This document shows, one piece after another, positions 1 to 30,400 of a DNA stretch of 64,000 bases. A model generated the notes under the pieces. It was not told the DNA's origin, did not search any database, and saw only the letters and a list, made by a program, of their open reading frames with translations. The position numbers and the translations under genes were made by a program. The first letter of the stretch is position 1. Every line of letters begins with the position of its first letter. The stretch comes from an uncultured Bacteroidales bacterium (GTDB lineage Bacteria; Bacteroidota; Bacteroidia; Bacteroidales; UBA932). The DNA lies in NCBI GenBank assembly GCA_944323785.1, contig CALUTU010000011.1:1-64000 (forward strand), read 5' to 3'.

Positions 1-2
1 AG

Positions 3-135: not shown

Positions 136-136
136 G

Positions 137-221
137 TGCCCAGAACAAGACTCGAACTTGCACGCCTTAAACAGGCACTACCCCCTCAAAGTAGCGTGTC
201 TACCAATTTCACCATCTGGGC
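137..221 (-). tRNA. tRNA-Leu(GAG)
   Basis: On the minus strand the 7-bp acceptor stem GCCCAGA/TCTGGGC closes an 85-nt cloverleaf with a long variable arm, as expected for leucine tRNA. The anticodon stem CTACT/GGTAG encloses loop TTGAGGG, giving anticodon GAG, which reads CUC and CUU. The T-loop is GTTCGAGTC. CCA is not encoded; the discriminator base is A. Confidence 0.95.
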
Positions 222-233
222 TCATTGGGGCTG

Positions 234-241
234 CAAATATA
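234..241 (-). promoter_or_regulatory. -7 box of the tRNA-Leu promoter
   Basis: TATATTTG on the minus strand matches the Bacteroidetes -7 consensus TAnnTTTG exactly. It lies 12 bp before the mature tRNA 5' end, so a start a few bases upstream of the tRNA is expected. Confidence 0.6.
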
Positions 242-320
242 CGATGTTTTTTGGAAAAAGAAATTTTTTTTTAGAAATTTTCTTAAATTTACATCAAATT
301 TTGATAAAAAACGTCGGACC

Positions 321-1413: not shown

Positions 1414-1416
1414 CCT

Positions 1417-3663: not shown

Positions 3664-3698
3664 ATTGAAATCCGACTTTTTCTACATTTTTTCTGCAG

Positions 3699-3706
3699 CA
3701 AACATA
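3699..3706 (-). promoter_or_regulatory. -7 box for the AraC regulator
   Basis: TATGTTTG on the minus strand is a perfect TAnnTTTG match, 35 bp upstream of the regulator's start codon. A TTGG lies about 22 bp further upstream and could serve as a -33 element. The divergent P-ATPase gene has only a one-mismatch box (CAATTTTG) on the plus strand. Confidence 0.5.
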
Positions 3707-3760
3707 ACAATTTATACGGAATGAAGTGCCAATTTTGCAGCCGATTTTAATTCTTACGAT

Positions 3761-6370: not shown

Positions 6371-6372
6371 TG

Positions 6373-7500: not shown

Positions 7501-7518
7501 GTATGCAGTATTTTTAAA

Positions 7519-7526
7519 CAAAAGTA
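7519..7526 (-). promoter_or_regulatory. -7 box for the MGDG-like glycosyltransferase
   Basis: TACTTTTG on the minus strand matches TAnnTTTG exactly, 18 bp before the start codon at 7500. Confidence 0.5.
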
Positions 7527-7567
7527 GAATATTTTTTAAATTTGCTGAAAATTAAAAATACGTTTGT

Positions 7568-8506
7568 ATGAAGATAGTTTTTCTGGATGCCGCGACTGTC
7601 GGCAAGGATGTGTCTTTGGATGGACTTAAGCAGTTCGGTGAGACGGTGTTTTATGACGCGACCAGGCAGGATGAGACTGCCTCCAGGGTGGCTGACTGCG
7701 ATATAATCATAACCAACAAGGTGAAGGTCTACAGAGATGAGATCGATGCGGCCCGCAACCTGAAGCTGATATGCGTGGCGGCTACCGGTGTCAACTGCGT
7801 GGATGTGGACTATGCAGCCTCTAGGGGCATACCGGTCAGGAATGTGCCGGCGTACTCGACCGAGAGCGTGGCCCAGGTGTGCTTCATGCACATCCTCAAT
7901 CTGGTGGGCCACGGGATGTATTTCAATGAGATCTGTCACGACGGACGCTATTCCCGCAGCGGGATGTTCTCCGACGTACTCAATCCTTTCTGGGAACTCA
8001 AGGGCAAGAAGATGGGTATCATCGGTATGGGTAATATCGGCTCGCGTGTGGCGGAGCTGGCGACGGTCTTCGGGATGGAGGTCTCCTATTACTCGACTTC
8101 CGGTACGGGACACTGCAGGACTTATCCCTGTGTGAGTCTGGAGGAACTGCTGTGCGGAAGCGATGTAGTGTCGGTAAACTGTCCTCTTAGTCCTAAGACA
8201 AAGGACCTTATCACATACGTGGAACTGGGCCGGATGAAGCAGGGTGCCTATATCGTCAACTGTTCCCGAGGCGGCATCATCAACGAGCACGATCTGGTAC
8301 GAGCCCTCAACGACGGCCTGATAGCCGGAGCTGCGGTCGATACATTTGAAACTGAGCCGCTGCCGATAGACCATCCCTACATAGCCGGAGTAAAGGACCC
8401 TTCCAGGCTGATTCTCTCGCCGCACATAGGCTGGACCAGCATCGAGGCCCGTATCCGCTTAGTGGAAGTCCTCGAGGAGAATATCCGTACATTTCTGAAC
8501 AAATAA
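7568..8506 (+). CDS. D-2-hydroxyacid dehydrogenase (NAD-dependent)
   Basis: This 312-residue cytosolic oxidoreductase interconverts a 2-hydroxyacid and a 2-oxoacid using NAD(P)H. The Rossmann motif is GMGNIGSRVAE near residue 153; VNCPLSPKTKDLI and VNCSRGGIINEHDLVRAL carry the substrate-binding Arg region; and the catalytic His is in SPHIGWTS near the C-terminus. Overall it resembles glycerate/hydroxypyruvate reductases, but the exact substrate cannot be fixed. It is divergent from the glycosyltransferase and 9 bp upstream of the AsmA-like gene. Confidence 0.88.
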   Translation: MKIVFLDAATVGKDVSLDGLKQFGETVFYDATRQDETASRVADCDIIITNKVKVYRDEIDAARNLKLICVAATGVNCVDVDYAASRGIPVRNVPAYSTESVAQVCFMHILNLVGHGMYFNEICHDGRYSRSGMFSDVLNPFWELKGKKMGIIGMGNIGSRVAELATVFGMEVSYYSTSGTGHCRTYPCVSLEELLCGSDVVSVNCPLSPKTKDLITYVELGRMKQGAYIVNCSRGGIINEHDLVRALNDGLIAGAAVDTFETEPLPIDHPYIAGVKDPSRLILSPHIGWTSIEARIRLVEVLEENIRTFLNK

Positions 8507-8515
8507 AAGCGAACA

Positions 8516-13385: not shown

Positions 13386-14498
13386 ATGAATTATAAGCGC
13401 AATATACTGATAACCGGCGGAGCCGGTTTCATAGGCAGCCACGTGGTTCGCCTGTTCGTCAACAAGTACCCCGAGTACCGCATAGTGAATCTGGACAAGC
13501 TGACGTACGCCGGCAACCTGGCCAACCTCAAGGACATCGTGAATGCCCCTAATTACGAGTTCGTCAAGGCCGACATTTGCGACTTCGAGACAGTCTGCGG
13601 TATTTTTCAGAAGTACGGGATAGACGGAGTCATCCATCTGGCGGCTGAGAGCCATGTGGACCGCTCCATCAAGGACCCGTTCACTTTCGCCAGGACCAAT
13701 GTGCTCGGTACGCTGTCCATGCTTCAGGCCGCCAAGCACAGTTGGGACGGCGACTGGGAAGGAAAACGTTTCTACCACATCTCCACTGACGAGGTGTACG
13801 GAGCACTGGAGCTGACCCGTCCCGAAGGAGTGCCTTCGGACATAAGCGCGCACATGGTCTACGGGGACGAGTTCTTCCGTGAGACTACCCGTTACAGTCC
13901 TCACAGCCCGTACAGTGCGTCCAAGGCCTCCTCGGACCATTTCGTAAGGGCGTTCCATGACACTTACGGTATGCCTGTGATAGTGACCAACTGTTCCAAC
14001 AACTACGGTCCCTATCAGTTTCCCGAGAAGTTGATACCCCTGTTCATCAACAATATCCGTCACCGCAAGCCTCTGCCCGTGTACGGCAGGGGGGAGAATG
14101 TCCGCGACTGGCTCTACGTGGAGGATCACGCCAGGGCCATCGACCTGATATTTCATGAGGGGAAGGTAGCCGACACCTACAATATCGGCGGCTTCAACGA
14201 GTGGAAGAACATCGACCTTATCAAGGTCATCATCAAGACCACGGACCGCATCCTCGGTAATCCGGAAGGTTATTCGGACGGTCTTATAACATTTGTCACT
14301 GACCGTGCCGGCCATGACCTGCGTTATGCGATAGATGCGACGAAGCTGCACCGTGAGCTTGGCTGGTCTCCCAGCCTTCAGTTCGAGGAGGGCATAGACA
14401 AGACTGTCAGATGGTATCTTGACAACCAGGAGTGGATGGACAACATCACCTCGGGAGCTTACGAGAAGTATTACGAGGATATGTACGGCAACCGTTAG
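13386..14498 (+). CDS. rfbB: dTDP-glucose 4,6-dehydratase
   Basis: This extended short-chain dehydrogenase converts dTDP-glucose to dTDP-4-keto-6-deoxyglucose. The NAD-binding motif is GGAGFIGSHVVR; HLAAESHVDRSI and STDEVYGAL precede the catalytic YSASK. At 370 residues it is typical. The fourth gene of the dTDP-rhamnose pathway, rfbD, is not present next to it or elsewhere in the window, so the final sugar could be rhamnose made with an unlinked rfbD or another dTDP-deoxysugar. Confidence 0.97.
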   Translation: MNYKRNILITGGAGFIGSHVVRLFVNKYPEYRIVNLDKLTYAGNLANLKDIVNAPNYEFVKADICDFETVCGIFQKYGIDGVIHLAAESHVDRSIKDPFTFARTNVLGTLSMLQAAKHSWDGDWEGKRFYHISTDEVYGALELTRPEGVPSDISAHMVYGDEFFRETTRYSPHSPYSASKASSDHFVRAFHDTYGMPVIVTNCSNNYGPYQFPEKLIPLFINNIRHRKPLPVYGRGENVRDWLYVEDHARAIDLIFHEGKVADTYNIGGFNEWKNIDLIKVIIKTTDRILGNPEGYSDGLITFVTDRAGHDLRYAIDATKLHRELGWSPSLQFEEGIDKTVRWYLDNQEWMDNITSGAYEKYYEDMYGNR

Positions 14499-14500
14499 AG

Positions 14501-16309
14501 ATGAGCAGTTATCTGGAAGTAGTCAATGTCTCCAAGTCTTACGGCCCGAGAGTGCTGTTTGACCACATATCGTTTCATATAGACGAGGGGGACAAGATAG
14601 CCCTGGTGGCTCCCAACGGTACCGGCAAGACATCACTGCTGAGTATTATCGCCGGCAAGGACTCTTCGGACGGCGAGGGCGAGGTGCGTTTTCTAAAGGA
14701 TATTACTGTCGCATTCCTGGAGCAGGACCAGCATTATGCCCCGGACAGGACCATTGCGGATATCGTACTGGAAGGAGCCGGTAACAAGGCTCATGACGTG
14801 CAGGACTATGAGGTGGCGGCCATCCTCTCGCAGCTGCATCTGGATGACCCTTCCCGTAAGGCCGGTACGCTCAGCGGAGGCGAGTCCAAGCGCACTGCTA
14901 TAGCAGCCGCCCTTATCCGCAAGCCGGACTTTCTGGTGCTGGACGAGCCGACCAACCACCTGGATGTGGACAGTATAGAGTTTTTGGAAGACTATCTGAC
15001 CCGCTCGCGCTGCACCCTGCTCATGGTGACTCACGACCGGTATTTTCTCGACAGAGTATGCAATCAGATTCTGGAGCTGGACGGCGGGCAGCTCTACCGC
15101 TACAACGGCAATTATGAGTATTTTCTGCAGAAGCGGCAGGAGCGTATCGAGAATTTCAACGCCGCCACCGACCGGGCCCGCAACCTGCTTCGGACCGAGC
15201 TGGACTGGATGCGGCGCATGCCCTGTGCCAGGGGAACCAAGGCCAAATACCGCAAGGACGCATTCTACGACCTGAAGGACAGGGCGGAGCAGCGGAGGGA
15301 TGACCGTCAGATGGAAATCAAAGCCGGCATGGCCCGTCTCGGCAGGAAGATAATCAACTGCAAGGGGTTGTGCTACAGCTGGGGAGATGTCCCGATAGTG
15401 GACAATTTCACCTACAACTTCGCCCCTGGGGAGAAGATTGCCATTGTCGGGCCCAACGGAGTGGGCAAGAGTACATTCCTGGACCTGCTGTACGGGACTC
15501 TGGAGCCGTCTTCAGGCACCATAGACAGGGGAGAGACCCTGCGAATAGGCTATTATCGTCAGGAAGGCATAAAGTTCGACAATGAGAAGACCGTCATCGA
15601 CACGGTGTCGGAGATAGCCGATGTGGTGACCATCGGCAATGGTGAGAAAGTCTCTGCCATGACATTTCTTAACTATTTTATGTTTCCGCCGTCCATGCAC
15701 CGCAACAGGGTCGGAAGGCTCAGCGGAGGGGAACGGCGCAGGCTTTATCTGCTGACCGTGCTGATGCGCAGTCCCAATTTCCTGATTCTTGACGAGCCTA
15801 CCAATGACCTGGACCTGATGACCCTCAATGTCCTGGAGGAGTATCTGGCCGGCTTTACCGGCTCACTGCTGATTGTCTCTCATGACCGTTTCTTTGTGGA
15901 CAAGCTGGCCGACCATCTCTTTATCTTCGAGGGCGGCGGTATGGTCAAGGACTTTGTCGGCAGCTATTCCGGCTATAGGCAGTACCTCAAGGACAGGGAA
16001 GAGGAGCGTCGGGCCGAGGCCAAAAATGCCGCCAAGGGTGCTGTGTCTGCTACAGGTGTGGCTTCTCCGGCCAACTCATGGAAAGGAGAGCGGAAACCTA
16101 AGCTGTCCTATAAGGAGAAGATGGAGAAGGAGCAGCTGGAGAAGGACATCGCGGCCCTGGAGGAGGAGAAGAAGGCTCTCGAGGCCCGTCTGTGCTCCGG
16201 CACTCTGCCCTCCGACCAGCTCACCTCTGACTCCGTCCGTATCGGGGAGGTCACCCGCCTCCTGGACGAAAAAGAGCTCCGCTGGCTGGAACTCGACGAG
16301 ATCGGGTAG
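14501..16309 (+). CDS. ABC-F family ATPase
   Basis: This 602-residue soluble protein has two ABC ATPase domains and no membrane segment, the hallmark of ABC-F proteins, which act on ribosomes. Walker A motifs are APNGTGKTSL and GPNGVGKSTFL; signature motifs are LSGGESKR and LSGGERRR; Walker B motifs are FLVLDEPTNHLDV and FLILDEPTNDLDL. The linker has the charged pattern of ABC-F, and the C-terminal 90 residues form a Lys/Glu-rich coiled coil (KEKMEKEQLEKDIAALEEE), as in Uup. The ATG at 14501, 2 bp after rfbB, gives the family N-terminus; the upstream in-frame start lies inside rfbB. Confidence 0.93.
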   Translation: MSSYLEVVNVSKSYGPRVLFDHISFHIDEGDKIALVAPNGTGKTSLLSIIAGKDSSDGEGEVRFLKDITVAFLEQDQHYAPDRTIADIVLEGAGNKAHDVQDYEVAAILSQLHLDDPSRKAGTLSGGESKRTAIAAALIRKPDFLVLDEPTNHLDVDSIEFLEDYLTRSRCTLLMVTHDRYFLDRVCNQILELDGGQLYRYNGNYEYFLQKRQERIENFNAATDRARNLLRTELDWMRRMPCARGTKAKYRKDAFYDLKDRAEQRRDDRQMEIKAGMARLGRKIINCKGLCYSWGDVPIVDNFTYNFAPGEKIAIVGPNGVGKSTFLDLLYGTLEPSSGTIDRGETLRIGYYRQEGIKFDNEKTVIDTVSEIADVVTIGNGEKVSAMTFLNYFMFPPSMHRNRVGRLSGGERRRLYLLTVLMRSPNFLILDEPTNDLDLMTLNVLEEYLAGFTGSLLIVSHDRFFVDKLADHLFIFEGGGMVKDFVGSYSGYRQYLKDREEERRAEAKNAAKGAVSATGVASPANSWKGERKPKLSYKEKMEKEQLEKDIAALEEEKKALEARLCSGTLPSDQLTSDSVRIGEVTRLLDEKELRWLELDEIG

Positions 16310-16323
16310 CGGCTGGCAGACGG

Positions 16324-16410
16324 CTTTTGGAAGCAGCGGTGCGGTGTATAAAAGAGAGTGTCTGATAGTCAGACATACAATTAATCAGGGTGCACCGGCA
16401 CTTCCAAAAG
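16324..16410. repeat. Imperfect inverted repeat with a nested palindrome upstream of the Wadjet operon
   Basis: Arms at 16324-16342 and 16392-16410 share CTTTTGGAAG and GGTGC, with three mismatches between them. The 49 bases between hold a perfect palindrome (GTCTGA, TAG, TCAGAC) at 16360-16374. The element is in the 195-bp gap between the ABC-F gene and jetA. It could be a terminator for the first, a regulatory site for the second, or a boundary of the acquired segment. Confidence 0.6.
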
Positions 16411-16504
16411 GTCTCAGTTTCAGGATAACAGTAGAATCTCACTGAGTGATGTTTCCGGTGTCTTTCTTGCGCATTAATAAAAAATTTAATAACTTGGCGT
16501 TGCA

Positions 16505-17701
16505 ATGCCTACGTATAACTCGATAAAAGAACTGACAAGAGGACTTCAGCAAGGAGCCAGGCTGCTGAACGACATGTTCATCAAGAGGAAGACAGTGTCT
16601 ATAAAGTACGATGATGCTGTTGAGACTCTTGACGGTGATGAGAACAAGGTAAGGCATCTCATAGATTTCGGAGTTATAGTCCGCTCAGGGGATACACTTG
16701 AACTGGACGATGCTTACCAGCGTTTTTTTGAAGAGGTGCTGGCGGTCAATGAGGATATAAACATTGCTTCTGTGCAGACCTATATCTCAAAGTTGAAGTT
16801 GGGGATACATTCTTTTCTGGCGACTGATAATCCTGCCAGACGGTCTCAGTATCTTAGAGAGATACGCCATACTTTCAAAAGTATTGAGAATGCCACTATG
16901 AGGAATGTCGTTGACCTTAAGCGGAATGTGGAGCAGACATACAAGCAGGAGCCTAATTTCAGGATAAAGGAATTTCGGTTGCGGGATTTTGATGAAAAGG
17001 CCGGACTGATATCAGAGTTGGTCAGGCAGACCGAGAAAGTCATGGACGAGCAGACTGTGTTTTTTGCCAATGCAGCAGCGGATGTCGGACTTAAGCAGAC
17101 TGTAAGCGAGGTAAGGGAAGGCCTGCACGAGTCGTCCCATGCCCTTATCTCGATATCGGCTCAGATTATAGATTATCTGAATCGGATAGAGTATCAGAGC
17201 AAGTTGGTTAAGAAAATCCGGCAGTTGAAATACATGAAGGATCAGCTGATGGTTGAGGAATGTACGGATATAAGGAGCGTGCTCGGCAAGACAAATGACC
17301 TGTGGATGGAAAAACAGCCAAAATACATTACCCGTGTTTCATTGGATTTTCTTAGGAATGATGATTCTGCATTGGAAATACTCAACAGCATAAGGCGCAG
17401 GCTGTCCAGGAAAACTACTGTCAAGTCCCGTTTGGCAGGCAGGATAGATGATGAGTATCTTTTTGAGAACCAGGAAATCAGCCGGATGTTCGACCATGCG
17501 GCAATCATGAACGGTTTCATGGCACAGGGAAGGGATCTGTTCAGCTATGTATGGAATTATGAGTTTGAGACACCGGCAGATGAGGAGATGCGCCTTGTAC
17601 TGTTTCTGCAGTTGGCCTCACAGTACGACGGACGGTTGAGATATTTGTCTGAGACCAGAACCGTCAAGAATATTGAATACCCTCTAATCTATTCAAAATG
17701 A
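16505..17701 (+). CDS. jetA: Wadjet JetA / MksF-like kleisin
   Basis: This 398-residue, mainly helical, charged protein is the first of four overlapping or nearly adjacent genes that together match the Wadjet (MksBEFG, JetABCD) anti-plasmid system. Its role there is the kleisin that links the SMC ATPase heads. The N-terminal 90 residues look like a winged-helix region; the middle has long helices (residues about 110-260) as in MukF and MksF. It has no enzymatic motif. Assignment rests on gene order and size, because kleisins diverge strongly. Its stop overlaps the jetB start in ATGA. Base composition is more AT-rich than that of the ABC-F gene before it. Confidence 0.78.
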   Translation: MPTYNSIKELTRGLQQGARLLNDMFIKRKTVSIKYDDAVETLDGDENKVRHLIDFGVIVRSGDTLELDDAYQRFFEEVLAVNEDINIASVQTYISKLKLGIHSFLATDNPARRSQYLREIRHTFKSIENATMRNVVDLKRNVEQTYKQEPNFRIKEFRLRDFDEKAGLISELVRQTEKVMDEQTVFFANAAADVGLKQTVSEVREGLHESSHALISISAQIIDYLNRIEYQSKLVKKIRQLKYMKDQLMVEECTDIRSVLGKTNDLWMEKQPKYITRVSLDFLRNDDSALEILNSIRRRLSRKTTVKSRLAGRIDDEYLFENQEISRMFDHAAIMNGFMAQGRDLFSYVWNYEFETPADEEMRLVLFLQLASQYDGRLRYLSETRTVKNIEYPLIYSK

Positions 17702-18249
17702 AATATACCCGTGAAGTTTTCCAAAGACTGTCCAGAGGACAGTTCATTTCAGGGAACAGCGTAGATCCTGAAACCAGAGCCATTTACAATGATATCGAGG
17801 AGTGTCAGGCGGAGTATGAGGATTATTTCCGCAAGATAGACTTTCATCTGTCTGCGGGAGACGGTTTTTATTATTTCAGCAGAAAAGAACCGAGGGTGAA
17901 TATTGAGAATAAACTGCAGTCTCTCTTTTCCTGGATTGACTATCTGGATTTTCTGAAGACTTATGACACCACTTTTGATGCCGGGACTCAGTTCTCGTTG
18001 GCGCAGATGGAGATAAGACTTTCGTCTGATCTTGAGTTGAAGGAAAAGCTGTCAAGGCTGTTTCAGGACAAACTGTCCAATCGGGATAAGCTCGAGGCTC
18101 TCGCAAATACATTGGTGAGCATGGGGTTTGCAGAACAGACGAACGAGACGGAGGAACGGTATCAGGTGACATCTGCATTTCATTATATCGAGCAGATTAT
18201 TTCCTGCATAAACATTGATGAGGAGGTGAGAGATGAGATACCTGAATAA
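17698..18249 (+). CDS. jetB: Wadjet JetB / MksE-like subunit
   Basis: This 183-residue protein occupies the MukE/MksE (JetB) position between kleisin and SMC genes. In the family this subunit is a dimeric winged-helix protein that binds the kleisin and helps hold DNA. The C-terminal part has a plausible winged helix (FAEQTNETEERYQVTSAF is a wing-like hairpin). It overlaps jetA by 4 bp (ATGA) and jetC by 17 bp, so the three proteins are probably translationally coupled. Assignment is by context and size. Confidence 0.78.
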   Translation: MKYTREVFQRLSRGQFISGNSVDPETRAIYNDIEECQAEYEDYFRKIDFHLSAGDGFYYFSRKEPRVNIENKLQSLFSWIDYLDFLKTYDTTFDAGTQFSLAQMEIRLSSDLELKEKLSRLFQDKLSNRDKLEALANTLVSMGFAEQTNETEERYQVTSAFHYIEQIISCINIDEEVRDEIPE

Positions 18250-21200
18250 GATAGTGTTCATAAACAGCGCGCACATCCCCTATGCGGAAATCAAGCTTGA
18301 CGGGAATGTACATTTCATAGGTACGCAGGGAGTCGGGAAGTCAACACTGCTCCGTGCCATATTGTTCTTCTACAATGTGGACAAAAGCAAGTTGGGCATA
18401 CGGACCCAGGATAAGCAGAAAAGTTATGACGAATTTTACTTTCCTTACCCGAACTCCTATATTATATATGAGGTTTGCAGGGAAAACGGACATTTCTTCG
18501 TAATGACCTTTTTGTCGAGTGGGAGGGTTGCCTTTCGTATTGTGGACTGTCCTTACGAGAAGCACTTTTTTGTGGAAGAGGACAATAGCGTAAGGTATGA
18601 GTGGGGTCGGATAAGCGAGCGGATCGGGACGAAAGTCTACCGCAGCAACATCATACGGAGTTACGAGGAATTCCGGGATATAATCTATGGAAACGTTCAG
18701 AATGTCTCCAAGGATCTGCGCAGATTCAACCTGATGGAAAGTTCGCGGTACCAGAATGTGCCCAGGACTATTCAGAATATTTTCCTGAATCAGAGTCTGG
18801 AGTCGCGTGTCATTAAGGACACCATTATCAGCTCAATGGATTTTGCGGGAGACAGCATAGATTTGAATTTCTACAGAGAGTATGTGAAAGATTTCCGCCA
18901 GCAGTATGAGGATATATGGAAATGGTATAAAAAGGATAAGAACGGTAAGGTAAAAGTAAAGGCAGAAGCAGACAAGGTCATTGCAGATTATTCTCTATAC
19001 GAGGTGGTTGGGAAAAGCATAAGAGAATTGTGCGCAAAACTCAACTATGCAATGGAGCGTGATATGGGCAGATTGCCTTTGTTGGAGGAGGATATCGCTG
19101 CTCAATCCCGGGAACTGGCCCGCCTGAAAAGGCTGTTGAGCGAAGAACATGACAAATATAACAAGGAAAGGGATGCCCTGAAAGAGGAAGAAGGTATTCT
19201 GAAAAACTTTTTCAAAGAGGTGAGGGCCAGAATGCAGCATTATTCTGATATAGGGATAGATGCGTTAATCGCTAAAATGGCGCAGGAGCAGGAGCTGGGT
19301 ATCCGCAGAAAATCGTTGCTAAGTCAGGAGAATGTCCTTACGGATAAGAGCCAGAGTGTCAGAATGCGGTATGAGGCTCTGAGACAGGAACTGGACAACA
19401 GTCTTAAGGAGTTCCGCCTGCAGGCCGGACAGCAGATCAATGAAATAGAACGTGTGAAAACGGAAGATGTCGCAAAAGCTCAGTCCGGGTATGCCTCAAA
19501 ACTGAGTGGCCTGAATACTCTCTATCAACAGAAACAGGATGATATACAGGAGAATATAGATGGACTTACGCACGACAAGACAGAATTGAGACTAAAGGAA
19601 CAGAAAATCCGTCAGTTAAATCCTTATCAGAAGGAAACAGAAGACTTGGCGGAGCGGATTCGTGGACTGGAGGCGAAAAGTCATGCCTTAACCGTGGAAC
19701 TTAATCAAAAGCAGCGGGAAATAGAACGGATAACAAATGATACGGCATCCAGGCGTAAAGAGCTTGAGAATGCATGCGAGAAAGACCTTCTTGCTATAAG
19801 TCATGCCAAAGAGAAGCTGGAGCAGGAAATAGCCAGGCTCGATGAGCTCTTAGCCGGGCAGAAAGGCTCTTTCATAGAGTGGTTGGAGGATAATGCCGCC
19901 GGATGGAAGGACAACATAGGCAAGGTGGCGAATGATACCCTGCTTTACAGTACTTCTCTCGAGCCGTGCAAAGCCGGAAACTCGGACACGCTGTATGGAA
20001 TCCGCATTGAACTGCAGAATGTGGACAGGACTGTAAATACTCCTGAGGAAATACGCTCAAAGATAGATGAATATAAGCAGCAAATCAACGCACTTGACAA
20101 TAAGGCGGCAGAGAGGCAGCAGAAGCTCGATGGCGATATTGAAGAACTGGAACGTCAGCCGTCGGTGAAATTAAAGAGTCTCCGCAAGGAGAGAATCAAC
20201 ATGGAAGCGGAGTTAGGGCAGATTCCGGCACATATAGGACATTGCAAGAAAGAGATGGGCGTATATCAGGAAAAACTCAAAGAATGGAGAGACAGAGAGT
20301 TGAATGATATAAGAGGACAGTCAGGGAAGATAGAGGAACAGCTGGCCAGGCAAAGAACGTTAAAGCAGCAGACTGGCGCTCAGAAGCGGAAGGAGGAAGA
20401 AGAGTTGCGCAAATCTGTGGAGCGCAGGAAAAGGGATATTGATACTTTTGCAAGGCAGAAAAAAGAAGATGTCAATGCAGCACTCAAGCGGCATGAGGCT
20501 GACATCGCAGTGCGCAGACGGGAACTTGAGGCGCAGGAGGATGCGGAGCTTAAAGGACACGGCGTGGATGTAAACAGACTGGCGGAGATAAAGGTGGAGC
20601 TGCAACAGGTCAACGACGCTCTGGATTATATTGAGAATCATAAACAAGATTATTACGCCTGGCAGAAAGACAAGAAGGAGTATTTTGATCTGGAACAGTC
20701 CAAGAAAGAGGAACGGAAACGGCTGCAGGAGAAGATGAGTGAGCTGCAGCATAAATTTGACCTCAGAAGAGAGAAAAAAGAGGCGGAAATCCGCACGGTC
20801 TCCGGGGAAGTCCAGTCCCTGCAGAGTGAGAAGGCGAGGCTTGAAGAAGCCATTGACAGAGTCAATCAGTTTTTAAACAATCCCACATGCCCCTCCGATA
20901 TTGCCGGGGCCGGGACTCAGGAGACTCAGGAACAACTGTCTTCTATCCTGGACAACTTAAGGGACAACATCAGCGGCTTGCAGCAGAGGATGGAGGAATT
21001 CAAAAAAGCTGTTACTGTATTCAAGAGCAATTTCTCACCTCAGAATACATTCCATTTCCGAACAGAATTCAATACCGAAGCGGATTACGTGGAATTTGCG
21101 TCAGAACTGCACGAATTCATATCCAACAACAAGATAGAGGAGTACCGTACCCGTACAAGCGGTCTGTATGCCGACATAATCAAGCGGATTGCCAGGGAAG

Positions 21201-21889
21201 TAGGAGATCTTGACAGGCACGGCGCCGAGATTAGAGCCACCATAAACGAGATAAACCGGGACTTCAGGGAAAACAATTTCGCAGGTGTAATCAAGGAAAT
21301 AGAGCTTCGTGCAGTGGAAAGCAGCGACAGGCTTATGCAGCAGCTTATCAATATCAAGAAATTTGATGAGGAATATGGCTTTGATATTGGAAATCTGAAC
21401 CTGTTTTCGACAGAAGAGTCCCAAAGCAAGACTAACGAGCAGGCTGTAAAGCTGTTGGTGAACCTGATAGAGATGATGGACTTAGACCGCAAACGTGAGA
21501 GGATAACCCTGTCTGATACATTCAAACTGGAGTTCAAGGTCATGGAGAATGACAACGACACCAACTGGGTGGAAAAACTCTCCAATGTCGGCTCGGACGG
21601 AACGGACATATTGGTGAAATCGATGGTGAACATCATGCTTATCAATGTGTTCAAGAGGAAGATATCCAAGCATTTCGGGGATTTCAGGCTGCACTGCATG
21701 ATGGATGAGATAGGCAAACTGCATCCTGATAATGTGGAAGGTATATTGAAGTTTGCCAACGTGAGGAATATTTTCCTGATAAACAGTTCTCCGACAACGT
21801 ACAATGCTCAGGTCTACAAGTACACATATTCTCTGAGCAAGGATGACAGGAACAATACTGTAGTAAAAACATTGCTGACTATAAGATAA
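18233..21889 (+). CDS. jetC: Wadjet JetC / MksB-like SMC ATPase
   Basis: This 1218-residue SMC-like ATPase is the motor of the complex, which extrudes DNA loops and recognises small circular DNA. The N-terminal Walker A GTQGVGKS is at residues 30-37. Two long coiled-coil arms follow, rich in Glu, Lys and Gln, between about residues 265 and 890, with a non-coil segment near residues 540-620 (FIEWLEDNAAGWK) as hinge candidate. The C-terminal head has a signature-like GSDGTDILVKSM near residue 1121 and the Walker B LHCMMDEIGKL near residue 1155. These features mark the MukB/MksB class rather than Smc. Confidence 0.9.
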   Translation: MRYLNKIVFINSAHIPYAEIKLDGNVHFIGTQGVGKSTLLRAILFFYNVDKSKLGIRTQDKQKSYDEFYFPYPNSYIIYEVCRENGHFFVMTFLSSGRVAFRIVDCPYEKHFFVEEDNSVRYEWGRISERIGTKVYRSNIIRSYEEFRDIIYGNVQNVSKDLRRFNLMESSRYQNVPRTIQNIFLNQSLESRVIKDTIISSMDFAGDSIDLNFYREYVKDFRQQYEDIWKWYKKDKNGKVKVKAEADKVIADYSLYEVVGKSIRELCAKLNYAMERDMGRLPLLEEDIAAQSRELARLKRLLSEEHDKYNKERDALKEEEGILKNFFKEVRARMQHYSDIGIDALIAKMAQEQELGIRRKSLLSQENVLTDKSQSVRMRYEALRQELDNSLKEFRLQAGQQINEIERVKTEDVAKAQSGYASKLSGLNTLYQQKQDDIQENIDGLTHDKTELRLKEQKIRQLNPYQKETEDLAERIRGLEAKSHALTVELNQKQREIERITNDTASRRKELENACEKDLLAISHAKEKLEQEIARLDELLAGQKGSFIEWLEDNAAGWKDNIGKVANDTLLYSTSLEPCKAGNSDTLYGIRIELQNVDRTVNTPEEIRSKIDEYKQQINALDNKAAERQQKLDGDIEELERQPSVKLKSLRKERINMEAELGQIPAHIGHCKKEMGVYQEKLKEWRDRELNDIRGQSGKIEEQLARQRTLKQQTGAQKRKEEEELRKSVERRKRDIDTFARQKKEDVNAALKRHEADIAVRRRELEAQEDAELKGHGVDVNRLAEIKVELQQVNDALDYIENHKQDYYAWQKDKKEYFDLEQSKKEERKRLQEKMSELQHKFDLRREKKEAEIRTVSGEVQSLQSEKARLEEAIDRVNQFLNNPTCPSDIAGAGTQETQEQLSSILDNLRDNISGLQQRMEEFKKAVTVFKSNFSPQNTFHFRTEFNTEADYVEFASELHEFISNNKIEEYRTRTSGLYADIIKRIAREVGDLDRHGAEIRATINEINRDFRENNFAGVIKEIELRAVESSDRLMQQLINIKKFDEEYGFDIGNLNLFSTEESQSKTNEQAVKLLVNLIEMMDLDRKRERITLSDTFKLEFKVMENDNDTNWVEKLSNVGSDGTDILVKSMVNIMLINVFKRKISKHFGDFRLHCMMDEIGKLHPDNVEGILKFANVRNIFLINSSPTTYNAQVYKYTYSLSKDDRNNTVVKTLLTIR

Positions 21890-21897
21890 ATTTGAGG

Positions 21898-22764
21898 ATG
21901 GGAATAACAGTTGCACAGACGGAAAAACTGCTGAGGCTGGCAAAAGGAGATACGTTGCCGTCGAGTATACTTAAAGGAGAACTGTTCGAATGGATGGTTT
22001 CGGACGGAATACTTGTTGCCGTCACCCGAGGCAGCAGGAAGAGTTATCGTGCAAGGGACGGGCGGTCTCTGAGAGATTATATTGCTGCTCATTTTGATAT
22101 CAGAGATCTTGAGAAGTATTGTAAACTGTTACAGGAAGGAGGTGCGTCCCGTGCTGAGCAGGTGAGGATGACCGGGAATTCCAAGACTATAGCGCGCCGT
22201 ACCTTCTACGGCTTTATGGTCAATTGTTATGAGCCGATACCTGTTATGTTGGCGGGAAAGTCTTTCAACCTGTTGCCTGAGGAAGGGACATTCGCATTCA
22301 TCTATGATTTTAATACATTCTCAATTCCGGGAGACACCGTAGTTGTAGGCATTGAGAATGCCGAGAATTTCAGATACATCAGAGAGCAACGGCCGCTGTT
22401 TGAGTCCATATCTCCAAAAGAATCCAGGTTGTTGTTTGTCTCCAGATATCCTCAGGAGCAGAGTCGTGACCTTATGCAATGGCTTATTTCAATCCCCAAC
22501 CGGTATGTCCATTTCGGAGATTTGGACTTGGCAGGAATCCATATTTACCAGAGTGAGTACTACAGACGTCTCGGGGAAAGGTCCTCTTTCCTGATTCCGC
22601 AAGATTATGAGTACAGAATATCAACAGGCAGCAGTGAAAGATATGACAATCAGTACAGTAGATTCGGCAAAATGAAGATTACAGATTCCCGTGTGGCCTC
22701 TCTTGTGGAGTGCATTCACAGATACCATAAAGGCTACGATCAGGAAGGGTTTATTGGCAGTTGA
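21898..22764 (+). CDS. jetD: Wadjet JetD / MksG-like Toprim nuclease
   Basis: This 288-residue protein is the nuclease subunit that cleaves circular DNA once it is fully extruded. The C-terminal half has the Toprim signatures: an acidic GIENAEN with E153, and HFGDLDLAGIHIY with D208 and D210. A winged-helix-like N-terminal region (residues about 1-110) precedes it. It is shorter than the roughly 380-400 residues usual for JetD, the shortfall being N-terminal. The ATG at 21898 lies 8 bp after jetC; a TTG at 21892 would add only two residues. Its stop is 22 bp before the helicase gene. Confidence 0.85.
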   Translation: MGITVAQTEKLLRLAKGDTLPSSILKGELFEWMVSDGILVAVTRGSRKSYRARDGRSLRDYIAAHFDIRDLEKYCKLLQEGGASRAEQVRMTGNSKTIARRTFYGFMVNCYEPIPVMLAGKSFNLLPEEGTFAFIYDFNTFSIPGDTVVVGIENAENFRYIREQRPLFESISPKESRLLFVSRYPQEQSRDLMQWLISIPNRYVHFGDLDLAGIHIYQSEYYRRLGERSSFLIPQDYEYRISTGSSERYDNQYSRFGKMKITDSRVASLVECIHRYHKGYDQEGFIGS

Positions 22765-22786
22765 ACATTGTGTGTCACTTACTGTT

Positions 22787-25498
22787 ATGGATGCAAGGCT
22801 GTACATGATTGTGGATTTGGAAAGGCGAGGAGATAAGCGGATGTTCATCACGGAGCAAGTCGTCTCGATAAGTGAGAGCGGCAGCGGTCTTTGGACGGTG
22901 CGGTTCTCTTCGTCTCCGCGAGTGTTCAATTATAATCATGCGAGACTGTTGTGTCTTTCGCATCCAGAGACTGTGGACCTTCAGGATAAAGGACTGTATG
23001 TCAACAATCGTCATATAACGAATGTCAAAGAACTCCTCCGCTTCACGGATGGGCGGCATACATTTTATCATGTGACTTATAACAACGGTTATTATGAGAA
23101 TCTTGAAAGTACGGAAGTATATGTCTCCCGCACACGTCTGGATAAAGATGGAGGCTCTGTCTGGGATTACTTGCGTAAATTGGCCGAAGAGACAAGTCTG
23201 ATTACGGAAGAAGATGACAGTATTCTTTCTAAGCAATATGATTTGGTGGATGTTATGCGGGATAATGTTCCATTGGTGCAGTATCTTGGCAACGGAGCCC
23301 GGTTGGCCTCATATAACTGTCCGGAGCAGATATACTATCCGTTCGGATGCAATGCAAGCCAGAAGGCTGCTGTGGAAGCCGCATTGATACATCAGGTAAG
23401 TATCATTCAAGGTCCTCCTGGGACAGGCAAGACACAGACCATCTTGAATATCATCGCCAATCTGCTTATGGCGGATAAAACGGTGCTGGTTGTGTCGAAC
23501 AACAATTCTGCCGTCGATAATGTGGCGGAAAAGCTTGAGAAAGAATGTCTTGGTTTTATTGTGGCCAAATTAGGCAGTGCTCAGAATAAGAAGGCATTCG
23601 TTGCCAATCAACCCGATTATCCGGATATGAGCGGTTGGACGATAGAGGAAGTCCCGGCAAAACTATGTGCGCGGGATTCGTTGCTTGCTGTGACTAAGGG
23701 ATTTGAGGCACAGATACGTCAATCTGGGCTCAAATCTGAGTACGATGCCTTACTGAAAGAGATGAAATACGAGAATATGGCCCGACGGGAGCAATCGTGC
23801 GATGAAAAATTAGGCGGGATGAGCTCAGCCGTGCTTATGAGGCTGCTTAATCTGTATCAGATGAAGATCAGGGCGAGCGGGCGCAAGCCGGGTCTGTGGT
23901 CCAGGTTAAAGTGGACTTGTGCATTCGGTATGAGAATGTTCCGGTTTCTCAGCAGCGCTCCGTCTTATGTGACACGTTCATTGGAGGCTGCGTATTATTC
24001 TTCGCGCAAGACTGAAATAGAAGAGGAACTATGCTCAATCGCTGCGATGCTGCAATCTATGGATCTCGATGAGCGGACAAAAGATTTGCGCTCGACTTCA
24101 CTTGCAGTGTTGAAGAGCAGGATGGCTGATCGTTATGGCACAGGAGAAAGGCAAAAGTTTGAAGTCAGAGAGATAAAACCGAAGACTGCGGCATTCCTGA
24201 AGGAGTATCCGGTCGTGCTGAGTACAACCTATTCTGCCAAGAGCTGTATCAGTAAGGATATGGTCTTTGACTACGTGATTATGGATGAGGCGTCACAAGT
24301 TGATATAAAGACAGGTGCGCTGGCCTTGTCCTGTGCCGTGAATGCCGTAATTGTAGGCGATGACAAGCAGCTCCCCAATGTGGTCAGCAGGGAGGAGGCA
24401 CAGGCATTGAACGCTATCCAATCAGAGTACAATGTGGATGACAGATACAATGCCGCCACGCACAGCTTCCTGCAGTCTTGTGTGGAAGTCTTCAAGGATG
24501 CGCCGGTGACATTGCTCCGTGAGCATTATCGCTGCCATCCCAAAATAATCGGATTCTGCAATAAACGGTTCTATGACGGCGAATTGGTGGCCATGACCAC
24601 AGATATGGGCGAGGATAAGGTCTTGCAGGTTGTACGGACTGTCAAGGGAAATCATGCCCGCGGGCATTTCAACCAGCGTGAGATTGATGTGGTAACGCAG
24701 GAAGTGATGCCGGAATATGCGGATGTTGGTAGTGTGGGCATCATTACTCCCTATCGGTTGCAGGCGGAGGAAATCAATAAGGCGATAGGGACAGATATTG
24801 CCAGTACGGTACACAAGTATCAGGGACGTGAGTGTGATACCATCATCATGAGTACGGTTGATAATGTGCCGACGGAGTTCTCAGATGACCCCAATCTGCT
24901 CAACGTGGCAATATCACGTGCCAAGACACATCTGTGCATAGTCACCAATGGCAATGATATGCCGCAGAGCTCTAATTTGGCCCAGCTTATCGCTTATGTC
25001 CAGTACAACAACTTTGAAGTGAAGGAGAGTAAGCTTCATTCAGTGTTTGATTTGTTGTATAAGCAGTATACGGCGGAACGGTTGGCGTATGAGCAGGCTC
25101 ACTCGGTCGGTGCTGGGTATCTCTCTGAAAACCTTGTGTATGACATGCTGATTAAAGGAATAGCCAAGTCGGGATTGGCAAATACAGGTGTCCTGTGCCA
25201 TTATCCTCTGTCAAGATTGATTGCTGACTGGGATATGCTGGATGAGCGGGAGAAAGCGTTTGCAGAAAGCCCTCTTGCGCATGTGGACTTTTTGATTTAT
25301 AATTCTCTTACCAAGAGGCCGCTTCAGACCATCGAAGTGGACGGTTGGCATTTTCATAAAAACAGCGAAGCCCAGCAGTCACGTGATGCCCTAAAGAACC
25401 AAATACTCACTAAGTTCGGATTGTGTCCGCATCGTATTTCCACAACAGCGACCGTAACCGAGGAAACGATTGTGAGCCTTCTCAATCAGGATAAATGA
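22787..25498 (+). CDS. SF1 helicase with C-terminal PD-(D/E)XK-like nuclease domain
   Basis: This 903-residue protein has all SF1 helicase motifs: Walker A GPPGTGKT (209-216), DEASQVD near residue 500, VGDDKQLPNVV, REHYRCHPKIIGFCN, VHKYQGRECDTIIMST and LLNVAISRAKTHLCI. The C-terminal 120 residues have a nuclease-like pattern, VDFLIYN followed by TIEVDGWHFH and RDALKNQIL, matching DUF2726/REase-type domains fused to defence helicases. The ATG at 22787 was chosen because the earlier in-frame start lies inside jetD. It is 22 bp downstream of jetD on the same strand with similar AT-rich composition, so it is probably part of the Wadjet operon. Its target is unknown. Confidence 0.88.
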   Translation: MDARLYMIVDLERRGDKRMFITEQVVSISESGSGLWTVRFSSSPRVFNYNHARLLCLSHPETVDLQDKGLYVNNRHITNVKELLRFTDGRHTFYHVTYNNGYYENLESTEVYVSRTRLDKDGGSVWDYLRKLAEETSLITEEDDSILSKQYDLVDVMRDNVPLVQYLGNGARLASYNCPEQIYYPFGCNASQKAAVEAALIHQVSIIQGPPGTGKTQTILNIIANLLMADKTVLVVSNNNSAVDNVAEKLEKECLGFIVAKLGSAQNKKAFVANQPDYPDMSGWTIEEVPAKLCARDSLLAVTKGFEAQIRQSGLKSEYDALLKEMKYENMARREQSCDEKLGGMSSAVLMRLLNLYQMKIRASGRKPGLWSRLKWTCAFGMRMFRFLSSAPSYVTRSLEAAYYSSRKTEIEEELCSIAAMLQSMDLDERTKDLRSTSLAVLKSRMADRYGTGERQKFEVREIKPKTAAFLKEYPVVLSTTYSAKSCISKDMVFDYVIMDEASQVDIKTGALALSCAVNAVIVGDDKQLPNVVSREEAQALNAIQSEYNVDDRYNAATHSFLQSCVEVFKDAPVTLLREHYRCHPKIIGFCNKRFYDGELVAMTTDMGEDKVLQVVRTVKGNHARGHFNQREIDVVTQEVMPEYADVGSVGIITPYRLQAEEINKAIGTDIASTVHKYQGRECDTIIMSTVDNVPTEFSDDPNLLNVAISRAKTHLCIVTNGNDMPQSSNLAQLIAYVQYNNFEVKESKLHSVFDLLYKQYTAERLAYEQAHSVGAGYLSENLVYDMLIKGIAKSGLANTGVLCHYPLSRLIADWDMLDEREKAFAESPLAHVDFLIYNSLTKRPLQTIEVDGWHFHKNSEAQQSRDALKNQILTKFGLCPHRISTTATVTEETIVSLLNQDK

Positions 25499-25551
25499 AG
25501 AATACTGTATTTTTATTCATTTTAATTGAAATTGTTTCATAACAATAATTA

Positions 25552-25575
25552 AATTTGTATTGCTGAATACAAATT
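25552..25575. repeat. Perfect AT-rich hairpin after the defence island
   Basis: Arms AATTTGTATT and AATACAAATT are perfect reverse complements around the loop GCTG. It lies in the 133-bp AT-rich gap between the helicase and the convergent Crp-like gene. It may act as a weak bidirectional terminator; no long T run follows on the plus strand. Confidence 0.55.
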
Positions 25576-25631
25576 AATATAGTTGAATATTAAGTGTTGT
25601 CCGAAAATAATGATAAGGTCCTTGGAATTTC

Positions 25632-26243
25632 TCAGGTGAGGACGTAGCCGTCGGTGGTTTTGCGGAGGGTGCCCTGGGAGACGAGCTGGGAGACGGCGCG
25701 GGAGAGGGACGGGCGGGCGACGCCGAGGATGAAGGCGGTCTCCTGCAGGTTGGATATCGGGCCGTTGTTCTCAATGTAGCTTACGATGCGCGATGAGAGA
25801 GTCTGGAGGGCAAACTCCACGAGGCGGTTGCTCAGGAACATACTGTGGTCGGAGATGACTCTGAGGTAGTTCTGCATGACGGTCTGGTCGGCTTTCAGGA
25901 TACGCAGCATGGCTTCCCGGCTGATGAGCCAGATGCTGCAGTCGGAGGCGGCGATGATGGTTACGGGAAAGATGCCGTCTGTACTGAAGATAAATGACGA
26001 GGCCAGCACTTCAGGGGCGCTCAGTGTGTCCAATGTGAATTCCCTGCCCTCCTCGCTTACCATTCTGGCGTACGCGCTCCCGCTGCACAGCAGGTACAGT
26101 TGCTTGCAGACATAGCCCTGAAGGGCGATGATATCCCCTTTGGCGTACAGCCTGTGTCTTGCGGGATTCTCCTGCAGGATGTTGTCAATGAGTTCTTTAT
26201 TGCCGCCAGAAAATAGCGGGAGGCTGTAAATGTCGCAATCCAT
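25632..26243 (-). CDS. Crp/Fnr-family transcriptional regulator
   Basis: This 203-residue regulator has an N-terminal cyclic-nucleotide-binding-like beta-barrel (about residues 10-125; YAKGDIIALQGYVCKQLYLL is the usual start) and a C-terminal Crp-type winged helix, where LQETAFILGVARPSLSRAVS forms the DNA-reading helices. No N-terminal cysteine cluster of the Fnr type is seen. The ATG at 26243 (MDCDIYSL) was preferred to a TTG at 26279. It is divergent from the metzincin lipoprotein operon across an 81-bp region that holds a 14-bp palindrome. It probably regulates itself and that operon. Confidence 0.9.
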   Translation of the reverse strand: MDCDIYSLPLFSGGNKELIDNILQENPARHRLYAKGDIIALQGYVCKQLYLLCSGSAYARMVSEEGREFTLDTLSAPEVLASSFIFSTDGIFPVTIIAASDCSIWLISREAMLRILKADQTVMQNYLRVISDHSMFLSNRLVEFALQTLSSRIVSYIENNGPISNLQETAFILGVARPSLSRAVSQLVSQGTLRKTTDGYVLT

Positions 26244-26272
26244 GTCAAGTTTCAGTTTGTTTCGCAGCGGGT

Positions 26273-26286
26273 GTAACAATTGTTAC
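26273..26286. promoter_or_regulatory. Candidate Crp/Fnr operator palindrome
   Basis: GTAACAATTGTTAC is a perfect 14-bp palindrome in the spacer between the Crp-like gene and the lipoprotein operon. Its centre (26279.5) is about 41 bp upstream of the start predicted from the -7 box at 26309-26316, the classic class II activator position. On the other strand it lies 30 bp before the regulator's start codon, where it could give autorepression. Confidence 0.65.
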
Positions 26287-26308
26287 GGAAAATGGCCGCA
26301 GGCCGGAA

Positions 26309-26316
26309 TACTTTTG
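26309..26316 (+). promoter_or_regulatory. -7 box for the metzincin lipoprotein operon
   Basis: TACTTTTG is an exact TAnnTTTG match 8 bp upstream of the ATG at 26325. No well-placed TTTG -33 element is visible, which fits a promoter that depends on the upstream palindrome. The leader would be only about 4-5 nt. Confidence 0.6.
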
Positions 26317-26324
26317 CACCCGTT

Positions 26325-28187
26325 ATGAAAAATTACACAAATATACTAATTATTCCGGCTATTGTGACTCTGCTGGCTTCCTGTTCTCTGGAAGAGAGAC
26401 CGGCGTGTCCTTCAACAGGGACAGAAGGAGACCGTATCACCGCAGGACTTCAGTATTACGGTTTTGATGGAGGTGAGCCCATGACACGTGCTGCTTCATC
26501 GGCAGATTATGATCGGGTAGAGCTGCTGGTTGCGGATGACGTCGGTTCTATAGTCCGCAATGTAAAGGTGGGCTATGAGCCGCACACTGCTCTCGTATAT
26601 ATCGAGGGACTTCAGCCTGGCGGATACCGTCTTATGGTGGCAGGAGTGAAGGGGGATGCGGATAAGGACGGAGTTAGGTTCGCTTCTGTCGACAATGCCT
26701 CTGAGACGTGGATAAGTTTTCCGGAGTCAGGAGTTGTCGGGTCGGAGTATTTTTATTCGTCAACGGCCTTTTCGGTCTGGCCGGAGGACGGTCCGGGCGG
26801 AATGGTCTTAGTGTCCGACATGCCGGAGACTATTGTGCAGGAGCGCATAATAGGCCGCTTGGATGTGGCTCTCAATTTCCGTAATCAGTATATCGAGGGT
26901 GCATTGAAGTCTGCTGTGGTCGGGTTGAGCTCTCCGGTATTCTATTCAGGACTAACGGCTGACGGAAATTTTGCCGGTACTGCGGACAGGGCGGATATGA
27001 CATTGGACCTGATGGAGGACAGAAGCTTTTTCCTGATTCCGACTGTGCCGGACGGCGGCTCTGGCGGCATGGTGGAAATAGTATCGCGCACATATACCGG
27101 CGAGACTGTCCGGAGGGAATATGCCGTTTCGCTGGAGGCCGTCGTTGCCAATCGGGTAACCTCGGTGTCCGTCGAGCCAGTCCATCCGGATGACGGGAGC
27201 GGAACCATGTTTATCACGGACAGGACATATGCGGCAGGCAATCATGGCCGGATCCTTCAGGATGACGAGCCGCATGCTGTCTATACTGACAAGACATTGC
27301 GTAATTTCAATACGGCCAGACCGTTGCAGATATCCGTGACCGGCGAGGGGCTGTTGAGTGTCCGATTTTATTCTCCCAAGCCCCTGAAGGACGTACTGAT
27401 ACGGGCGCGTATCCCTTCGGTGGGGAAAGAATATGTGGACCTGGCCTATTTTGACAGTATACCTGCCTTTGCGGATTTTTACGGTGAGATACCGGCTCTG
27501 TCCGCATCGCTGCTCTACCGTACCGGGTCGGGCAGGATAGTGGAGCTGCCGCAGTTGACGGCTGAGCAGATGGCTGAGGCTGACTACAGTATAGTCTCAT
27601 CTGATACCTACTGGAGCAAGCTTCAGAAGATACGGCACGGCTGGAATGTCCGATTTGACCTTTACGGTGGCGATCCTGACAAACCGGACGGAGGCCCTCA
27701 GGGCAACTGGATGGGCATCAGACCGGTACACTGTCGCGAAGCCGTGGCGTTCTTTCTCAATTTCACCTATATGATAGATATGCCGGAGCATGAGGAGATA
27801 TTGTGGGCCAATCAGGACCGTCTTTATGGCAATGGCGGAGTGGACGACAAGGTGTCGGTAGAGACAATACTCTCTCAGATGAGGCAGGACAGGACGGTCA
27901 ATGTCGGCCTTGTCTACACTGGAAATTATGTCTATGGTCTTGGCGGCGGCAGTGTTTTCGGCGCATGGCAGGGAGGCTGGCTGGACCACTATACCTCTGA
28001 ATATGCGTGTGAGGTCATGTTTCACGAGCTTGGTCACGTGATGGGCTACAGTCACAACAGTTCCTTTACTTACGGACCGTGGGCTCAAGAGCTAATGAAC
28101 AGATTTTATGTCAATAACATCTCGGAGATGCCGGTCGAGTCTTCCCATTGGCTTGACAGCAGGGCCAATCCGAACATATACAAGTAA
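26325..28187 (+). CDS. Lipoprotein with fimbrillin-like N-terminus and metzincin-type zinc protease site
   Basis: This 620-residue lipoprotein has a signal peptide ending in LLASCS, with the lipobox Cys near residue 20. Residues about 30-310 are beta-rich and resemble Bacteroidetes fimbrillin/Mfa-like domains (VYIEGLQPGGYRLMVAG). The C-terminus carries HELGHVMGYSH near residue 570, the complete HExxHxxGxxH metzincin zinc motif; NSSFTYG follows, where a Met-turn is not obvious. It is therefore a putative surface or periplasmic metalloprotease. The ATG at 26325 gives a clean signal peptide; the earlier in-frame start lies upstream of the -7 box. Its stop overlaps the next gene by 1 bp. Confidence 0.8.
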   Translation: MKNYTNILIIPAIVTLLASCSLEERPACPSTGTEGDRITAGLQYYGFDGGEPMTRAASSADYDRVELLVADDVGSIVRNVKVGYEPHTALVYIEGLQPGGYRLMVAGVKGDADKDGVRFASVDNASETWISFPESGVVGSEYFYSSTAFSVWPEDGPGGMVLVSDMPETIVQERIIGRLDVALNFRNQYIEGALKSAVVGLSSPVFYSGLTADGNFAGTADRADMTLDLMEDRSFFLIPTVPDGGSGGMVEIVSRTYTGETVRREYAVSLEAVVANRVTSVSVEPVHPDDGSGTMFITDRTYAAGNHGRILQDDEPHAVYTDKTLRNFNTARPLQISVTGEGLLSVRFYSPKPLKDVLIRARIPSVGKEYVDLAYFDSIPAFADFYGEIPALSASLLYRTGSGRIVELPQLTAEQMAEADYSIVSSDTYWSKLQKIRHGWNVRFDLYGGDPDKPDGGPQGNWMGIRPVHCREAVAFFLNFTYMIDMPEHEEILWANQDRLYGNGGVDDKVSVETILSQMRQDRTVNVGLVYTGNYVYGLGGGSVFGAWQGGWLDHYTSEYACEVMFHELGHVMGYSHNSSFTYGPWAQELMNRFYVNNISEMPVESSHWLDSRANPNIYK

Positions 28188-30367: not shown

Positions 30368-30400
30368 AAACATTTTACTAACCATTTAAATTTAAAAAAG

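Follow-up and report, generated by a model that had tools for sequence, protein, structure and literature searches.

Introduction

Type I Wadjet (JetABCD) and MksBEFG of Corynebacterium glutamicum share a four-gene layout that ends in a TOPRIM nuclease; in the Wadjet literature, JetABC is described as extruding circular DNA and JetD as cutting it (PMC10586767; PMC12287153). We analysed a relative of these systems in a 64,000-nucleotide stretch (hereafter the window; GenBank assembly GCA_944323785.1, contig CALUTU010000011.1) from an uncultured Bacteroidales bacterium of the UBA932 lineage, in which genes jetA to jetD are followed on the same strand by a gene for a helicase with a nuclease tail. 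A first-pass annotation of this DNA had proposed that the helicase might be the fifth part of an extended Wadjet system or, among other options, a defence unit in its own right on the same transcript. Our analysis argues that the block probably consists of two units in one horizontally acquired cassette, a Wadjet-like jetABCD operon and an autonomous helicase-nuclease behind it, and the latter looks like a roaming add-on rather than a fifth part of the machine.

Proteins akin to the second unit have been described in several defence settings. CnuH of type III-B CoCoNuT also combines a UPF1-like superfamily 1 (SF1) helicase and a PD-(D/E)xK nuclease in one fused protein of a prokaryotic defence system (PMC11090510), but its nuclease is Vsr-like, whereas that of the window helicase belongs to DUF2726 and stands beside varying partners. 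Mokosh helicases are listed with PLD or NERD domains in a review (PMC10952713). The joining of one module to several unrelated defence systems has a precedent in nuclease-protease pairs (Tuck et al., 2025, PMC12799240), each made up of a metallo-beta-lactamase-like nuclease and a trypsin-like protease, unlike the helicase-nuclease of the window, which is also found alone. Searches of the literature on Wadjet, JetD and MksG, Mks in Bacteroidetes, DUF2726, Mokosh and UPF1-like antiphage helicases, conducted outside bioRxiv and most subscription papers, returned no description of this pairing.

A divergent Wadjet-like operon

The five genes lie on the plus strand with overlaps and gaps of 4-22 bp, at the coordinates first assigned to them. 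The jetA-position gene (16505..17701, 398 aa), presumed to encode a kleisin/MksF-like protein, overlaps by 4 bp with jetB (17698..18249, 183 aa), an MksE/KITE-type subunit matching MksE in Pfam (PF21980, 2e-40). This gene in turn overlaps by 17 bp with jetC (18233..21889, 1218 aa), which encodes an SMC-type ATPase with intact Walker A and Walker B motifs (DUF3584, 2e-64). The ATG of jetD (21898..22764, 288 aa), a short TOPRIM-type nuclease gene, lies 8 bp past jetC (the ORF list instead begins at a TTG at 21892), and its product matches DUF7281 at 1e-6, with 28.9 bits against a cut-off of 27. The helicase gene (22787..25498, 903 aa) starts 22 bp past jetD. The name jetA is given on account of position in a recurring operon, since the protein falls below every Pfam cut-off, and PADLOC and NCBIfam, searched up to E 0.1, returned no match. 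Genes resembling it hold the same position in most fetched family loci, and the order jetA-jetB-jetC-jetD, by similarity to the window genes, recurs in 16 of 22 such loci, the rest being cut, partial, broken or devoid of jetA. With jetA as the presumed kleisin, the window has the kleisin-KITE-SMC-TOPRIM order of Wadjet and MksBEFG.

Canonical Jet profiles nevertheless fail to recognise the subunits. PADLOC matches reach only 1e-4 to 3e-6 (JetB 9.8e-5, JetC 3e-6, JetD 3e-6, none for JetA), and the JetD_C profile scores 0.078 against the window JetD, under its cut-off. Profile-profile comparison with four canonical Wadjet loci (two for JetD) supports the assignment of JetB (probability 86%, E 5e-6), gives weak alignments for the ATPase end of JetC (25%, E 8e-4) and for JetD around a shared GDxDxxG motif (4.5%, E 0.009), and finds no match for JetA (0.1%). 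Searches of solved structures with the jetA, jetC and jetD profiles returned chance or coiled-coil matches only, and a single-sequence model of JetD (predicted local distance difference test score, pLDDT, of 42) was not interpretable and was discarded, so that no reading of an N-terminal CAP-like domain is taken from it.

The candidate catalytic residues of JetD (E155, D210, D212 and E285, numbered from the TTG at 21892) are invariant in 22 of 22 aligned rows. By their order and spacing they are like the residues E236, D279 and E349/E351, named as metal-binding in MksG (PMC10123090). The protein had been called about 100 residues shorter than usual. This holds against canonical JetD (288 aa versus 346-409 positions in the five matched PADLOC profiles) but not as a peculiarity of this operon, as lengths of 269-302 aa are normal across the 22 rows, window included. 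A Wadjet subtype defined by a short JetD together with the helicase was considered and rejected, since the short form is clade-wide. Judged by its sequence, then, jetABCD is a divergent, short-JetD relative of MksBEFG and Wadjet, with intact motifs and outside the canonical Wadjet profiles; from layout and motifs, its mode of action would seem to resemble that of Wadjet.

Canonical Wadjet genes are present in the same taxonomic order, DUF3375 (JetA) in 6 of 159 genomes and JetD_C in 3 of 159, one of these three being a weak match with a stop. The two Wadjet-like types can coexist, as three genomes of the order (G412, G425, G453) carry a canonical DUF3375 JetA in addition to a member of the short-JetD clade. 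Spacing within the short-JetD operons varies: about 890 bp separate jetC from jetD at L257 9595-15027 (G425), where the genes are usually tight, and the jetA-jetB gap is about 180 bp in locus L065 and 860 bp in L066. Three short-JetD operons (L173, L174, L175) come from circular, plasmid-labelled records of 65, 157 and 76 kb in Phocaeicola and Persicobacter, an apparent anti-plasmid system carried on plasmid-like records. Scans of viral contigs found no jetD relative and one jetC relative (L291), whose bases 1-9000, inspected by eye, hold no jetD-like or helicase-like open reading frame (ORF) of 90 aa or more.

A UPF1-like helicase with a nuclease tail

The description of the fifth gene as an SF1 helicase with a DUF2726-like nuclease tail was confirmed, its product matching AAA_11/AAA_12 and, at the C-terminus, DUF2726 (2.7e-9) in Pfam. 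The nearest solved proteins in a profile search are SMUBP-2, DNA2 and UPF1, and a model built from 39 sequences (pLDDT 88) matches Ighmbp2 (SMUBP-2), UPF1, SETX and DNA2. With its SF1 motifs, long stalk-like helices and UPF1-clade fold, the protein belongs to the UPF1-like SF1B helicases. The motor residues K215, D500/E501 and R711 are invariant in 39 of 39 rows, as are D834, E850 and D852, which form the acidic core of a PD-(D/E)XK nuclease and would be catalytic. Because UPF1-like helicases act on both RNA and single-stranded DNA (PMC11090510), the substrate may be either DNA or RNA. By record title, the family occurs in Bacteroidota, Bacillota, spirochaetes and Campylobacterales, many of the records being metagenome-assembled genomes.

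The best PADLOC matches of the window helicase are the Mokosh proteins MkoA and MkoC (2.4e-60 and 2.1e-51), but the MkoA match is limited to residues 129-723, and in Pfam the protein has the DUF2726 tail in place of any PLD or NERD match. A divergently placed PLD gene lies nearby in one (L073) of the 16 places where a close helicase is found. As for CoCoNuT, no McrB or McrC partner was noticed among the listed helicase neighbours, which were reviewed without a profile search aimed at either protein.

The helicase seldom accompanies jet genes

If the helicase were a fifth part of a conserved system, it should recur behind jetD, as the first-pass annotation proposed. In the family sample (thresholds E<=1e-5 for jetD and E<=1e-40 for the helicase), jetD relatives occur in 23 of 398 genomes, the window's own included, and helicase relatives in 26 of 398; in the order sample the counts are 21 of 393 for jetD (E<=1e-10, the window's own included) and 14 of 386 for the helicase. 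Both are present in five family genomes, namely the window's own (G000), G185, G173, G356 and G082, with the two genes on different contigs in G173 and G356. Besides G000, a single genome of the order sample (G719) has both, again on different contigs.

Among 35 other loci with jetD and 1 kb or more of sequence beyond it, the helicase follows in only one, and that one, in G185, is a 99.7%-identical copy. These loci comprise 18 from the family, 14 from the order and 3 from plasmid records: 9 of 43 were dropped for having less than 1 kb after jetD (3/20 family, 6/20 order, 0/3 plasmid records), leaving 34, to which G185 was added. They include L024, L069 and L269, in which jetD is partial or stands without other jet genes, while G256 (L025), with no ORF-level match, was left uncounted. 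Seen from the other side, the helicase stands beside jet genes in 2 of 25 other family genomes that carry it (22 judged on fetched loci; G042, G019 and G265 unfetched but without a jetD match), these being G185 and G082, where the operon is broken. None of the 13 other helicase genomes of the order sample shows such an arrangement, and the jetA, jetC and jetD profiles have no match in 80 GTDB helicase loci, the best 80 of 466 relatives, with flanks from almost none to 8 kb per side. The identities of the jet proteins and the helicase also disagree: G191 encodes JetA-D at 77-91% identity to those of the window and has no helicase match, whereas in G173 JetA-D (38-49%) are encoded on one contig and a 68%-identical helicase on another. 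The proposed five-part system was thus not borne out: the helicase is found mostly without Wadjet, short-JetD operons mostly lack the helicase, and we reject the five genes as a conserved system.

A foreign-looking block between uup and a crp-like gene

The block lies between a uup-like ABC-F ATPase gene (14432..16309, plus strand) and a crp-like regulator gene (25632..26279, minus strand). The five genes have a GC content of 0.44-0.48 and a third-position GC content (GC3) of 0.50-0.56, compared with 0.50-0.57 and 0.60-0.78 in ten other genes of the window. The similar base composition noted at first for helicase and jet genes is therefore real, all five lying below the ten others in GC, and codon-usage distances are 0.39 between helicase and jet genes, 0.58 between helicase and host genes and 0.46 between jet and host genes. 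At this site (window 16303-25637; compared loci L213 and L215), the matches to the uup and crp flanks of the window are separated by only 33 bp in G141 and 40 bp in G098. Because the two sides nearly adjoin there, the whole block is an insertion relative to these genomes and, as read from composition and comparison, is a low-GC, foreign-looking cassette. No att-like repeats were seen at its edges in a weak test, the same search having also missed the ends of a nearby miniature inverted-repeat transposable element (MITE).

Comparison with G185 delimits the shared segment. From 11568 to about 15000 the two sequences differ by about 9-19% per 500 bp; from 15000, inside uup, to 16371 they are about 99% identical, and from 16362 to 25560 they are 99.7% identical. 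Past 25560 they diverge again, and G185 has an extra small gene. This pattern points to homologous recombination, in a single recent transfer of all five genes, although it may also come from a chimeric assembly.

The same site holds other genes elsewhere. In G087 it contains three opposite-strand genes, for an nSTAND1-WD40 protein, a SIR2-like/TIR protein and a third protein that reads as membrane-bound, with weak or no PADLOC matches. Similar-looking genes follow uup in G046, where the crp side was not found. Between uup and jetA in the window lies the MITE-like element with terminal inverted repeats (16324..16410), whose copy in G185 is longer and has an inner hairpin; its end motif, allowing up to one mismatch, recurs in 8 of 19 genomes of the genus, against 3 of 19 for a reversed-pattern control.

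The helicase has varied partners elsewhere

Close relatives of the helicase (at least 60% identity) were found in 16 places. In eight of them the gene starts at most 60 bp behind a same-strand gene, the other eight having no such neighbour, and the eight tight upstream genes or operons all differ. They are jetABCD, with jetD adjoining; PDC-S02; an ATPase_2 gene (L075); a Fic gene, PDC-S72 (L077); an AAA_15 gene, PDC-M29A, followed by a 197-aa gene that adjoins the helicase (L091); a SNF2, N6-methylase and bSEFIR run ending in a 218-aa gene (L172); a DrmMI/Eco57I-like protein followed by an adjoining 694-aa gene; and a fragment that reads as dehydrogenase-like (L074). L077 and L091 share what reads as the same mnmE-like flank and differ in the genes before the helicase. 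L172 (1-11709) comes from a Parabacteroides distasonis plasmid record, where the SNF2, N6-methylase and bSEFIR (TIR) genes and a 78%-identical helicase form one run.

More widely, in the 75 GTDB loci with at least 300 bp upstream, simple ORF picking without a gene caller placed the nearest upstream ORF on the same strand in 53 and within 60 bp in 28. Eight partners of the distant group, picked by eye for scanning, include SLFN-g3/PDC-S41, GmrSD, type III restriction, PDC-S01, DUF2130 and a weak PDC-M03A, the remaining two (L105, L118) having no PADLOC or Pfam match.

Probably two units in one cassette

We consider it probable that two units share this cassette, an explanation that builds on the gene order, the domains and intact motifs, the cassette and its empty counterpart site, the near-identity with G185, the lack of a helicase behind almost every other jetD examined and the varied partners of the helicase. 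In the first unit, small DNA circles would be extruded by the SMC motor JetABC and cut by JetD, the short TOPRIM protein, with restriction of plasmids as the likely outcome. In the second, the UPF1-like SF1B motor would move along single-stranded nucleic acid and its PD-(D/E)XK tail would cut it, the helicase-nuclease acting by itself on the nucleic acid of an invader. The units may have been transferred jointly and are perhaps expressed from one transcript; a scan of promoters (20 versus 13.5 expected) and terminators (14 versus 6.6 expected) found none convincing before the helicase. The helicase family would move between genomes, often taking the final position after unrelated operons, many of them defence-type. 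Among the options first put forward, a separate defence unit in a presumably shared transcript is the best fit: the Wadjet-like four-gene operon followed by a same-direction helicase-nuclease in one foreign-looking block stands, and the five-part system does not.

Several observations weigh against this explanation. Co-occurrence of jetD and helicase in the family sample exceeds expectation (5 genomes versus 1.5, p 0.012), although leaving out G000 and G185 reduces the contrast to 3 versus 1.3 (p 0.13). All five genes are common to G000 and G185, and there may be selection for the pair in that lineage. G082, where a 39%-identical helicase lies between a jetC tail and jetD, is a second, independent association with jet genes, in an operon whose jetA and jetC are broken. 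The defence character of the partners is itself only suggestive. Strong PADLOC matches (E<1e-50) occur in 5 of 7 partner operons, compared with 2 of 9 genes drawn at random from those loci (Fisher test, p 0.07, covering seven of the eight tight partners, all but the L074 fragment). In this count the matches of L172 and L285 come from a gene further upstream, the one adjoining the helicase being negative, and the jet operon and the L075 ATPase are scored negative. Two further control genes match PADLOC at 1e-22 to 1e-23, 1 of 7 downstream genes is also a strong match (PDC-S10), and some PADLOC candidate models look generic. We rate the link to defence accordingly, given the weak contrast, the downstream match and these generic models. 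In the broken operon of G082 (L056 8558-16633), the middle of jetC is replaced by genes that read as UvrD-like and RNase H-like, which may reflect decay or misassembly.

Another reading of the partner list, which we hold to be possible but unlikely, is that the helicase-nuclease is a general post-cleavage effector, repeatedly recruited as the last gene by unrelated DNA-cutting systems (Wadjet-like, type III, GmrSD, DrmMI/type IIG-like). The upstream system would mark and cut invader DNA, and the shared helicase-nuclease would unwind and destroy the cut DNA; if so, a Wadjet-like system that linearises its target would have become, with the helicase at this locus, one that degrades it.

A five-part system restricted to one lineage, in which the plasmid, once linearised by JetD, is degraded from its ends by the helicase-nuclease and so put beyond repair, seems unlikely. 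The tight spacing, the similar composition and the near-identical whole block in G000 and G185 would fit it, as would the helicase inside the broken G082 operon and the presence of presumed DNA cutters among the other partners (type III restriction, GmrSD, the DrmMI/Eco57I-like protein). It is hard to reconcile, however, with the 34 of 35 other loci in which no helicase follows jetD, with a helicase that is mostly alone or beside non-jet partners, and with the unmatched identities in genomes that hold both.

It is also quite unlikely that the two are pure chance neighbours at a site that collects genes, the helicase having no functional or regulatory tie to jetD. The differing content of the uup-crp site in related genomes, the 8 of 16 close helicases without a tight upstream neighbour and the weak PADLOC contrast with control genes are all compatible with chance, but the other eight copies lie within 60 bp behind a same-strand gene, several of them defence-type, which points to a preference for positions behind defence genes.

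Finally, jetABCD is very unlikely to be a chromosome-organising MksBEF condensin with a TOPRIM helper rather than a defence system: JetB does match the MksE family, and MksBEF is reported to take part in Pseudomonas chromosome segregation (PMC7485682), but the operon is patchily distributed (23 of 398 family genomes), low in GC and nearly identical in different species, and its site also hosts another defence-type cassette; these features, like the invariant acidic residues of JetD, fit defence.

With two units in place of a tempting five-gene Wadjet subtype, the locus points to a short-JetD, Mks-like clade in Bacteroidales that PADLOC matches weakly, and to a helicase-nuclease found in the same order behind unrelated, often defence-type genes. 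If the partner pattern holds at scale, it would add to the examples of a single effector shared among many immune systems, and the partners listed here would supply testable pairs.

To the right of the crp-like gene, the window also carries a run of three large lipoprotein-like genes (26280-32659) that read as fimbrillin-like.

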